This document shows positions 274-37,972 of a stretch of 37,972 bases of DNA, in pieces (the stretch's first letter is position 1; every line of letters starts with the position of its first letter). The stretch covers positions 1 through 37,972 of the forward strand of contig MHOK01000001.1 in the NCBI GenBank assembly GCA_001820055.1, given 5' to 3'. A model generated the notes under the pieces. That model ran no database searches, was not told the origin of the DNA, and saw only the letters and a program-made list of their open reading frames with translations. This DNA is from Candidatus Spechtbacteria bacterium RIFCSPLOWO2_12_FULL_38_22 (GTDB taxonomy: Bacteria; Patescibacteriota; Minisyncoccia; Spechtbacterales; 2-12-FULL-38-22). A program made the position numbers and the translations under genes.

Positions 274-572
274 GGGCGTTTAGCCCCTCACATGCAATAA
301 TAAAATGTATTATGTGTATATAATAAGAAGTAAAAAAGATACTAGTTTGTACACTGGTTATACTAATAATTTGAAAAGGCGTTTTGTTGAGCACAACGAT
401 ATGTTAAACATTTCTACAAAGCACAAGGCACCTTTCCAACTTATTTATTACGAAGCCTATTTATCTAAGTGACGCAAAGCATCGTGAAAAACAATTGAAA
501 CGTTTTGCAGGTTCTATGGTGCATTTAAAAAAGAGGCTTCGTAATACTTTAAGCATGTGAGGGGCGTTTAGC
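274..572. repeat. direct and inverted repeats framing the GIY-YIG pseudogene at tRNA-Val
   Basis: GGGCGTTTAGC occurs at 274-284 and again at 562-572, where it forms the 5' end of tRNA-Val. Just inside, CCCCTCACATGC at 284-295 is the exact inverse of GCATGTGAGGGG at 553-564. The GIY-YIG pseudogene lies between them. The arrangement looks like an element that inserted at the tRNA 5' end and left a copy of the first 11 bases upstream. The direct repeat is short; the added 12-bp inverted repeat makes chance less likely. Confidence 0.6.
305..560 (+). pseudogene. GIY-YIG nuclease-domain protein, frameshifted
   Basis: Translation from ATG 305 gives MYYVYIIRSKKDTSLYTGYT, the GIY and YIG strands of the family, then LKRRFVEHN with the usual Arg, then LIYYEAYLSK before a TGA at 470-472. 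One base later, in the frame beginning at 471, the family resumes with DAKHREKQLKRF and runs to a TGA at 558-560. One base inserted (or two lost) near 470 would account for this. The joined product would be about 85 residues, normal for single-domain GIY-YIG proteins of this type. The stop lies one base before tRNA-Val. A sequencing error or programmed shift cannot be excluded. A related intact gene lies at 36755-37060. Confidence 0.8.
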
Positions 573-6173: not shown

Positions 6174-7343
6174 TTACTCTGCTAACTTTAATGCAATTTT
6201 ATATTCGGCTGGGTCTATGCTTGTGATTTCAAATTTATATTTTTTACCCTCTTTTAATTTGTCTTTTAACTCTTGTTCATCTTTGAATTCCGATATATGC
6301 AGGAGTCCTTGTATGCCTTCTTCTATTTTCACTAAGGCTCCGTAAGCGCTTATTTTTGCAACCTCTGCTTCTAGTTGGTCTCCAGCTTTATATTTTTTTT
6401 CTATGCCTTCCCATGGATTATTTTTTAAGGCCTTTAGCGATAAGGAGACTTTTCCATCTTCTGCGATATCTACGATTTTCGCTTTCATTTTGTCTCCAAC
6501 TTTTACTATATCGTGAGGGTCTTCTATCAAACTCCAATCAAGTTCTGATATGTGTATCAAACCTTCAAGCAGGGGATCAAATTTAATAAAAGCTCCAAAG
6601 TCCACAACACCAGTTATTTCTCCCTCAACTTCATCACCAATTTTATATTTACCTAGGGCTATTTGTACGGATTCACTTCCCGCCGCTTTTTCTGAAAATA
6701 TAAGTTTATTTTCTTTCTGGTCCGCGTCCAAAATTTGTACTTGCATTTTTTTACCTATAAAACCTCGCAATTCTTGCAATATCTTATTTTTATCCCCGCC
6801 TTCTACTCTGGGGTAGTGTGCCGGTGCAAGCTGGCTCACGGGCAAAAATCCGCTGACATCTCCCACGACGCCCATCAACCCGCCTTTGTTTGCATCTGTT
6901 ATTTCTATTTCAATAATTTTTTTATTCCTTTGCGATTCTTGTATGTGTTGCCAATTTTTTTCCTGCTTAGCTTCTTTTAAGGATAGTTCCCTGTAACCAT
7001 CTTCGTTTTCAACTTCTATTACTTTGGCAGTCAGTTCATCTCCTGGTTTTAATTTTTTTATTTCATCTTGCGCTTTCAAATATTCGGCTCCATAGACGAC
7101 ACCAGTTCCTATGTGTCCTAGGTCTATATAAAGCACACCTCCTTCTTTATCTATAATTTTACCTTCTACAACATCGCCCTTTTTAGGCAACTGAAATAAA
7201 GATTTGTCAGTTTGCACAACTGATTTCATAGCATTTTTACCTGCCTGACCGGTAGGCAGGCCTGCCTGACCGGTAGGCAGGCCAGCTTGTCGCATGTTAT
7301 TTGATGTAGGCAGGCTTGATTGTTTTGTAGTTATGTCTAACAT
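6174..7343 (-). CDS. rpsA: 30S ribosomal protein S1 (four S1 domains)
   Basis: S1 is an RNA-binding protein that helps the 30S subunit capture mRNA, likely important here because most genes lack Shine-Dalgarno sites. Four S1/OB repeats are visible: from GDVVEGKI (about residue 54), a degenerate second one (GGLMGVVGDVSGFLPVSQL), GDEVEGEITGVVDFGAFIKF, and GDQLEAEVAKISAYGALVKI. The count is lower than the six of Escherichia coli S1 and typical of short S1 forms. Residues 19-36 repeat AGLPTGQ, encoded by two tandem 21-bp palindromes. The native start may therefore be MKSVVQTDKS (about residue 39), with the palindromes in the leader; the long form is kept because the frame is open. Confidence 0.9.
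   Translation of the reverse strand: MLDITTKQSSLPTSNNMRQAGLPTGQAGLPTGQAGKNAMKSVVQTDKSLFQLPKKGDVVEGKIIDKEGGVLYIDLGHIGTGVVYGAEYLKAQDEIKKLKPGDELTAKVIEVENEDGYRELSLKEAKQEKNWQHIQESQRNKKIIEIEITDANKGGLMGVVGDVSGFLPVSQLAPAHYPRVEGGDKNKILQELRGFIGKKMQVQILDADQKENKLIFSEKAAGSESVQIALGKYKIGDEVEGEITGVVDFGAFIKFDPLLEGLIHISELDWSLIEDPHDIVKVGDKMKAKIVDIAEDGKVSLSLKALKNNPWEGIEKKYKAGDQLEAEVAKISAYGALVKIEEGIQGLLHISEFKDEQELKDKLKEGKKYKFEITSIDPAEYKIALKLAE
7240..7281. repeat. tandem pair of 21-bp palindromes inside the rpsA 5' region
   Basis: Two head-to-tail copies of a 21-base unit, 7240-7260 and 7261-7281, each nearly self-complementary around ACCGGT. The period of 21 keeps the frame and is read as LPTGQAG twice on the minus strand. 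A partial copy (TAGGCAGGC) lies near 7308. The unit is related to the CCTGCCTG...CAGGCAGG palindromes at 7529, 36650 and 37892. Confidence 0.9.
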
Positions 7344-7446: not shown

Positions 7447-7570
7447 AAGTAACAAGTAACAAGTAACAAGTAACTGGTAACTAGTAAAAAAGAACATTTG
7501 CCTTTGGCAAATCAAAAATTACTGATTACCTGCCTGCTGGCAGGCAGGCGAGTTACGGATTACTAGTTAC
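7447..7570. repeat. intergenic repeat cluster (AAGTAAC tandem, palindrome, inverted repeat)
   Basis: Four tandem AAGTAAC units (7447-7474) and two decayed ones are followed by an 11-bp inverted repeat, GTAACTAGTAA (7477-7487) with TTACTAGTTAC (7560-7570). Its loop contains TTTGCC/GGCAAA and the 20-bp palindrome CCTGCCTGCTGGCAGGCAGG (7529-7548). This fills the divergent gap between rpsA and the metallo-hydrolase gene. Confidence 0.8.
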
Positions 7571-36649: not shown

Positions 36650-36670
36650 CCTGCCTGCCGGCGAGGCAGG
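36650..36670. repeat. CCTGCCTG/CAGGCAGG palindrome near tRNA-Ser(UGA)
   Basis: CCTGCCTGCCGGCGAGGCAGG, an imperfect copy of the palindrome also found at 7240, 7529 and 37892. The stretch 36573-36704 holds no gene. Confidence 0.8.
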
Positions 36671-36791: not shown

Positions 36792-37060
36792 TGTTGGTTG
36801 TACGATTTATTTAAAAATGTTTTTTTCAGCATTTTTGTGATGGTTCTTTTGCCCCAGCCACTTTTGAGGTATTCTTCTCTATCTTTGGCATCATTTTTGT
36901 TCAGGAATGCTTCGTAAAAGATAAGCTGATATGGACGAAATGGTTTTGTCGCTAAACTTTTTCCTTCGTTGTGTTCCTTAAATCGTTTTTGTAAATCGGA
37001 GGTATATCCTATGTATAAACTTTTGTCTTTTTTACTTTGAAGAATATATACGTAATACAT
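36755..37060 (-). CDS. GIY-YIG nuclease-domain protein running into tRNA-Ser
   Basis: 101 residues from MYYVYILQSK (earlier Met codons lie in the 94-bp repeat). The family signature is complete: YVYILQS, SLYIGYT, the catalytic-type Arg in LQKRFKEHN, and a Glu in LIFYEAFL. KDREEYLKSGWGKRTITKML ends the usual domain; the last ~11 residues (EASHSGLSHWF) are encoded by the 5' half of tRNA-Ser, and the TGA stop is its anticodon. Single-domain proteins of this type are small DNA endonuclease-like factors. The gene lies between two tRNA-Ser genes and begins five bases after the 94-bp repeat. A decayed relative sits at 305-560. Confidence 0.85.
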   Translation of the reverse strand: MYYVYILQSKKDKSLYIGYTSDLQKRFKEHNEGKSLATKPFRPYQLIFYEAFLNKNDAKDREEYLKSGWGKRTITKMLKKTFLNKSYNQQEASHSGLSHWF

Positions 37061-37763: not shown

Positions 37764-37891
37764 GTCCTCGTAGCGTCCTCCTACGCCCTTCATTTATTCA
37801 GGGCTTCGGAAGGGCAAGTAGTGATTTAAATTTACTACTCGCTCGTCCGTAGCTCAGAATATTTTTCTGAGCGAAGGAGAGTCCTCGTAGC
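37764..37891. repeat. direct repeat of the tRNA-Arg 5' end with hairpin-rich DNA between
   Basis: GTCCTCGTAGC occurs at 37764-37774 and 37881-37891; the second is the tRNA 5' end. Between them are small hairpins (GCCCTTC/GGAAGGGC; GCTCAGAA/TTCTGAGC; an ATTTAAAT core) and no ORF. Confidence 0.65.
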
Positions 37892-37944
37892 CCTGCCTGC
37901 CGGCAGGCAGGTCAGCTGGATAGAGCGCAACCTTGCGGAGGTAA
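37881..37944 (+). pseudogene. tRNA-Arg(GCG), D-stem interrupted by a 20-bp palindrome; 3' half missing or outside
   Basis: Without 37892-37911 the sequence reads GTCCTCGTAGC then TCAGCTGGATAGAGC, a perfect tRNA 5' half with D-stem GCTC/GAGC. The insert CCTGCCTGCCGGCAGGCAGG falls between C11 and T12. The anticodon arm follows (CAACC, loop TTGCGGA, GGT), giving anticodon GCG (Arg), but the 3' stem continues AA instead of TG, and no T-arm is found in the last 28 bases. Either the gene is dead or a second insertion begins near 37943; the window ends too early to tell. Confidence 0.65.
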
Positions 37945-37972
37945 GTCCTGTATTTAACAACTGAAGTTTAGC

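Follow-up and report, generated by a model that had tools for sequence, protein, structure and literature searches.

What becomes of a tRNA gene when a short palindrome lands in its D-stem? The question arises at the end of the window, a stretch of 37,972 nucleotides that is the whole of contig C1 of the source genome (G000; 623 kb, 24 contigs, 93.7% complete). There a 20-bp perfect palindrome (CCTGCCTGCCGGCAGGCAGG, 37892-37911; 0 chance matches across 100 shuffles) is cleanly inserted between nucleotides 11 and 12 of a tRNA-Arg(GCG), in the 5' strand of the D-stem (TAGC/TCAG, the slash marking the insertion point). Its left flank (GTCCTCGTAGC, 37881-37891) and right flank (TCAGCTGGATAGAGCGCAACCTTGCGGAGGT, 37912-37942) join into 42 bases identical to the first 42 of an intact tRNA-Arg(GCG) on contig C22 (C22:44930-45006), which confirms the insertion described in the original prediction. 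The further claim, of a perfect 5' half once the palindrome is removed, is true as far as 37942. A second, larger insertion starts at 37943; with the contig ending at 37972, it was not recognisable in the window. The features of this region are:

37764-37774, plus strand: second 5' relic of tRNA-Arg(GCG), 11 nt, GTCCTCGTAGC
37775-37880, plus strand: 'element X', a hairpin-rich repeat with a homologue on C5, where it follows a 5' relic and precedes tRNA-Arg(TCG)
37881-37942, plus strand: tRNA-Arg(GCG) 5' half (relic), interrupted by the palindrome, from sequence comparison with the C22 copy
37892-37911, no strand: 20-bp perfect palindrome between tRNA nucleotides 11 and 12, D-stem, from a palindrome search
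37943-37972, plus strand: left end of the 377-nt insert, its arm (37946-37971) pairing with C22:44701-44726

The sequence could be extended past 37972. C1 shares its last 65 bases exactly with the end of C22 (C22:45046-45110, reverse strand), the overlap starting at 37908, and C22 continues the locus with an insert, an intact tRNA-Arg and the outer 3' half. The insert of 377 nt starts after ...GGAGGT, contains nested inverted repeats, is delimited by a pair of 26-nt inverted-repeat arms (37946-37971; C22:44701-44726) and is followed by the 3' half GGTCGGAGG...GACGCC. It had been proposed that the interrupted gene would be only a relic if it were unexpressed and an intact tRNA-Arg existed elsewhere. 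A 77-nt intact tRNA-Arg(GCG) lies inside the insert itself (C22:44930-45006). This intact gene has its own flanking inverted repeats and sits in one arm of a ~230-nt palindromic element with homologues on C19, on C20 and in relatives. Neither outer half differs from the intact copy, but three bases (TGA) between the halves, at the anticodon stem / variable loop, have been replaced. The Arg locus is a stack of insertions within one tRNA gene.

Because an intact, identical tRNA-Arg(GCG) lies inside the insert, the reading of the palindrome-bearing outer gene as a non-functional relic is well supported. Three fates had been offered for it (dead, tolerant of the hairpin, or rescued by processing), and the first is the one favored by the second split, the replaced bases and the enclosed intact copy. 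Could the outer tRNA-Arg nonetheless work, either by tolerating a hairpin in its D-arm or by removal of the palindrome and the 377-nt insert from its RNA in the manner of introns? Its halves carry no point changes relative to the intact copy, a TAT-anticodon tRNA on C2 has the same D-stem palindrome and is otherwise complete, and at other loci some inserts interrupt the anticodon, where tRNA introns are usually found. However, joining the Arg halves does not restore a tRNA, as TGA is replaced; no group I or group II intron was matched at E values up to 1; the intact copy makes the outer gene dispensable; and excision of tRNA-located palindromes left a whole tRNA at 0/122 listed and 0/12 sampled sites, described below. 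A working outer gene is therefore very improbable.

The junction also invites the suspicion of an assembly or binning artefact at the palindrome. C22 starts with the last four bases of the palindrome and C1 stops 65 bases later, so the assembly graph branched here; strain variation is possible, and the two contigs are joined by the 65-nt overlap only. Yet both tRNA halves and both repeat arms match across the join, and palindrome-bearing relics lie beside intact tRNAs in closed or isolate genomes too: CP055307.1 (L180), a WWE3 record titled complete (L137), Muriicola marianensis (L178) and Salinimicrobium xinjiangense (L213). We give an artefact hardly any credence.

The anticodon had been called GCG rather than the usual ACG, which is misleading. 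The best-matching loci of relatives, picked by similarity to the GCG tRNA, comprised 19 GCG, 5 CCG, 1 TCG and 0 ACG; a GCG anticodon is normal in this class. One intact GCG tRNA was seen in the 93.7% complete G000. In relatives, Arg(GCG) likewise lies near Ser(TGA) and Ser(GCT) (L043, L046), and the present place thus looks like the old site.

Broken tRNA genes were found elsewhere in the same genome. The surroundings of each of 38 intact G000 tRNAs were searched for tRNA halves, a half being a match scoring at least 12. An adjacent half was present for 13/38 and both halves for 5/38, namely Arg(GCG), Ala(TGC), Thr(CGT), Cys(GCA) and Glu(CTC), against 0 with shuffled halves; one of the 13, a 3' match at Ile(TAT), may be the neighboring palindrome-bearing tRNA, unmasked since ARAGORN misses it. 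The break in the outer gene falls within the anticodon at Ala, Thr(CGT) and Cys and in the D-arm at Glu, and these four inserts start and end with variants of TCCCGAT...ATCGGGA, as read by eye. The Arg insert differs in kind from them. At Thr(CGT) and Glu(CTC) the inner tRNA is clearly different from the outer one, so that a simple recent duplication does not account for them. At Leu(TAA), Leu(CAA) and Val(GAC) the order is 5' relic, GIY-YIG open reading frame, intact tRNA, and at Ala(TGC) a GIY-YIG gene lies between the 5' half and the intact tRNA. The Val case is in the window, with the intact tRNA-Val(GAC) at 562-636 directly after the insert:

274-284, plus strand: 5' relic of tRNA-Val(GAC), 11 nt, ending in TAGC like the Arg palindrome site, read from the sequence
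286-562, plus strand: insert with inverted-repeat ends CCTCACATGC / GCATGTGAGG and a GIY-YIG open reading frame (PF01541 at 305-469) that stops early

Escherichia coli K-12 served as control, with both halves at 0/35 tRNAs and one half at 10/35, nine of these being 3' repeats in Lys/Arg clusters. By Fisher's test, G000 differed from E. coli K-12 in 5' halves (10/38 vs 1/35, P = 0.007), with P = 0.055 for both halves (5/38 vs 0/35). Given the one-sided 3' repeats of E. coli, the 3'-only cases in G000 (Tyr, Met) prove nothing and were not counted as support. Those two loci, 3' of tRNA-Tyr(GTA) and of a tRNA-Met(CAT) on C19 and C22 (L067, L074), share an element GGGCAGGAAGCACTTAGCGA...GACTTGACG, followed at both by a 3' tRNA fragment that begins in the T-loop.

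Several other observations were made in passing. A palindromic element of ~200 nt, made of two large hairpins whose tips are similar, recurs outside tRNA genes (C19, C20; L025, L027, L028, L051), and by eye several copies end in arms resembling tRNA T-arm sequence. The window also holds a GIY-YIG gene between two tRNA-Ser genes (36860-37060, minus strand); here the downstream tRNA-Ser(TGA) showed no clear 5' relic. The scanned G000 tRNAs included no intact tRNA-Phe or tRNA-Asn; either the genome is incomplete or both are broken too.

The nested layout recurs in other genomes. Both halves were found for 4/91 tRNAs at the loci of relatives (threshold 14) and for 12/199 in a partly selected set (threshold 13), one of the latter in the complete genome CP011215.1 (L222). 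In one relative, G088, at least three nested split Ser tRNAs enclose a tRNA-Ser(TGA) (L040; G088:C7, minus strand; 2530-2617 of the reversed locus). The 5' halves end at ...CTTG, and the inverted repeats pair in nested order: CCCCGTAGAAAAGC with TTTCTTACGGGG, CCCCGCACCAAAAAATG with CATTTTTGGTGCAGGG, and TCCCGCACCTTTT with AAAGGTGCGGGA. One middle relic of this stack carries the palindrome variant CCTACCTGCCGGCAGGCAGG. A same-family genome, G002, has a tRNA-His(GTG) that is split twice (L036; G002:C24, minus strand). One split, in the D-loop, is due to a palindromic element, and the other, beside the anticodon, to an intact tRNA-His flanked by inverted repeats. More broadly, similar nested or half-duplicated tRNA genes were seen in other bacteria, often near a small GIY-YIG gene; several of these samples were selected by palindrome or by nuclease.

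We turned to the nuclease genes, which are single-domain GIY-YIG genes, often between relic and intact tRNA. From a PF01541 search in 13 genomes, 30 loci were fetched; nine had an intact tRNA just downstream, and seven of these nine a 5' relic of the same tRNA just upstream. The wider locus set, many members of which were chosen for carrying the palindrome, gave 34 GIY-YIG genes with an intact tRNA within 160 nt downstream, 27 of them with a 5' relic. In a tree of 33 GIY-YIG proteins, the 14 linked to tRNA-Leu, which come from several Patescibacteria lineages and from Bacteroidota, needed 2 label changes (shuffled mean 10.9; 0/500 as low). With 70 columns and mostly low branch supports, the tree is a clustering test and not a branching order. 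Judged by this clustering of protein sequences, nuclease family matches tRNA target.

Ordinary tandem duplication of tRNA genes, with decay of one copy and later insertions, would call for no tRNA-specific element. One-sided 3' repeats do occur in the E. coli K-12 clusters, and the inner and outer copies are identical at Arg and at the G002 His locus, as after a recent duplication. Tandem duplication, however, puts no intact copy between the halves of another, nor does it nest genes three levels deep with matching inverted repeats; the clear divergence of inner from outer tRNA at Thr(CGT) and Glu(CTC) and the tracking of tRNA target by GIY-YIG families also speak against it. We consider this explanation unlikely.

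The distribution of the palindrome itself was examined separately. G000 contains 10 palindromes within two mismatches of CCTGCCTGCCGGCAGGCAGG, of which 4 fall in tRNA sequence, although tRNA makes up ~0.54% of the genome (binomial P ~2e-7). These four are in the Arg relic, both Leu relics and a TAT tRNA on C2, two at TAGC/TCAG and two at GGYAGA/CG. Another copy lies 3' of tRNA-Ser(TGA) in the window (36650-36670). The earlier report of related palindromes in rpsA and intergenic DNA proved right, with copies at 7240-7260 and 7261-7281 in an rpsA-like open reading frame and at 7529-7548 in intergenic DNA. The former pair (7240-7281) consists of tandem 21-bp variants within N-terminal codons of this S1/rpsA-like frame and encodes GLPTGQA repeats; the 21-bp variants keep the frame, which a 20-bp copy would shift.

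A scan for TRGM-preceded palindromes, a pattern that favors the D-arm by design, covered one genome per species and gave at least 119 loci with 122 sites. Among the matches listed, 19/122 had an intact downstream tRNA matching the relic (score at least 15), 17/122 a GIY-YIG open reading frame within 600 nt and 11/122 such a frame together with a matching tRNA. Excision of the palindrome restored a whole tRNA at none of the 122 listed sites (a positive control was run). A sample free of this D-arm preference came from a class-wide search, in which 36/112 genomes (G000 included) had the palindrome; among the loci listed there were 78 palindromes from genomes other than G000. Twelve of the 78 were in tRNA sequence, nine in 5' halves and three in 3' halves, with the other 66 elsewhere; the threshold was reached at 2/78 random positions drawn from these loci. 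Nine of the 12 had an intact tRNA 29-304 nt downstream and three a GIY-YIG open reading frame, and excision gave a whole tRNA at 0/12. The sole exception to the excision result is the TAT-anticodon tRNA on C2 of G000 (L021 806-893; minus strand), which has the palindrome at TAGC/TCAG and is otherwise complete. A second intact TAT tRNA lies ~200 bp from it, and positions 1-60 of the window resemble a third that the contig end truncates; no other contig matched the first 200 bases of C1.

Is the palindrome then connected with the splitting of tRNA genes at all? It could be an independent short repeat that enters any DNA and favors hairpin-forming sequence, being found in relics as insertions into working tRNAs are lost. 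The 66/78 sampled palindromes outside tRNA sequence are in keeping with this, as are the copies in rpsA, in intergenic DNA and in other palindromes, and at the Arg locus palindrome and 377-nt insert are separate insertions. In a Nitrospirae MAG (L165, 1016), for instance, the palindrome sits at the exact center of another palindrome (GTTTAGC/GCTAAAC). On the other side, hairpins of other sequence occur at similar D-arm places in other relics (L281, L218, L241), which suggests a property of relics and not of one repeat family; D-arm hairpins, of this palindrome and others, recur in relics of Patescibacteria and Bacteroidota. We put an independent repeat somewhat short of an even chance. It is compatible with the relic reading and denies a functional link only.

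A role of the palindrome as insulator was also considered and rejected. When 25 relic-to-tRNA transcripts were folded, native pairing of the intact tRNA averaged 0.57 when the palindrome was kept, 0.54 after its removal and 0.51 after its shuffling, too weak an effect; folding was better with than without the palindrome in nine cases and worse in three, and the Arg locus stood at 0.87 in all. The flanking inverted repeats fared no better as insulators. Shuffling the 3' flank had little effect in most of 11 nested cases, and at Glu(CTC) pairing rose.

Several known systems resemble parts of this picture. Elements that integrate into tRNA genes use the gene as attachment site, carry an integrase and restore the split gene itself by a copied segment. 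They share with the present inserts the targeting of a tRNA gene and the preservation of tRNA function. The 377-nt insert, 77-nt tRNA included, is too short for an integrase gene and holds a complete second tRNA, unlike a tRNA-integrating island. Rickettsia palindromic elements, to which the original prediction likened the palindrome, are ~100-150 bp long, lie in frame in protein genes and also insert in RNA genes. The likeness, repeated palindromes across genes and spacers of small genomes, is a loose analogy in which size and host range differ. PMC5799277 describes these elements as confined to Rickettsia. Here the palindrome is 20 bp long with exact copies, and its matches are in Patescibacteria, Bacteroidota and others, with no Rickettsia among the 80 record titles of palindrome matches listed. 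Unlike the Rickettsia elements as there described, the present palindrome, when in tRNA sequence, nearly always occupies a dead half.

Group I introns of bacterial tRNA genes spread with homing endonucleases, according to a review (PMC3984707). As portrayed there, they likewise place mobile DNA in the anticodon region of tRNAs, but splice out to leave one working gene, whereas here the working tRNA is a separate complete copy. Part of the Arg insert looks intron-like by eye; a group I/II intron was nonetheless rejected, as cmscan of L019 and L001 (E up to 1) gave no Rfam intron match and exact exon joining fails at the three replaced bases. SegB of T-even phages is a free-standing GIY-YIG homing endonuclease that is reported to introduce breaks within tRNA sequences; tRNAs are copied when its gene recombines with the 5' part of a tRNA gene (PMC13096335). 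Both systems place a small GIY-YIG gene beside tRNA genes. SegB concerns phage, tandem amplification and measured cutting, while the present elements are chromosomal, have a complete tRNA inside or behind the split one and are known from sequence. In G000 a GIY-YIG gene is present at Leu(TAA), Leu(CAA), Val(GAC) and Ala(TGC), as it is at further loci elsewhere. The Arg insert, when searched, contained no GIY-YIG gene; this element may have lost its nuclease gene, or may be a member of the palindromic family alone. Loci that do have the nuclease gene resemble a free-standing tRNA-gene homing element in layout, with the whole replacement tRNA behind or inside the broken one as its unusual trait. 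Search listings of open-licence PMC literature yielded no report of nested tRNA genes of this kind, and 0 papers with the letters of the palindrome.

We think it likely that selfish elements, probably GIY-YIG homing endonucleases and their deletion forms, break tRNA genes and leave a complete copy beside the break. Their cutting and mobility are what we infer from these layouts. A small GIY-YIG endonuclease that recognises a single kind of tRNA gene would cut it, and repair would then copy in the nuclease gene with a complete tRNA, yielding a 5' relic, the nuclease gene or its remnant and a complete tRNA, sometimes followed by a 3' half. Such an insertion would be harmless because a complete tRNA is present. 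At the Arg locus, a mobile palindrome-rich element would have split tRNA-Arg(GCG) between the anticodon stem and the variable loop, with the complete tRNA inside the insert keeping the cell supplied. The D-arm hairpins could be insertions tolerated in dead DNA, repair scars, or a shield for an old recognition site. A more far-reaching version is tentative, and we would sooner doubt it than affirm it. In it, widespread selfish elements, each devoted to one tRNA kind, break the gene (often at the anticodon) and bring a replacement flanked by inverted repeats; each new tRNA would be the next target, building Russian-doll stacks, and the D-arm hairpins of relics would mark the site that the nuclease once recognised, or block it.

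At this locus the palindrome is the ordinary feature, marking a dead gene half, and the surprising one is the nested or half-duplicated tRNA layout. If the proposed mechanism is true, the tRNA genes of very small genomes would be under heavy attack by selfish DNA that compensates for its own damage. It would also give tRNA genes a natural way of being replaced, even by divergent copies such as those at Thr(CGT) and Glu(CTC). It would account for small GIY-YIG genes beside tRNAs and warn annotators of relic tRNA halves. Finally, it would point to a family of ~70-residue nuclease domains whose tRNA-gene specificity could be guessed from genomic place and tested directly.
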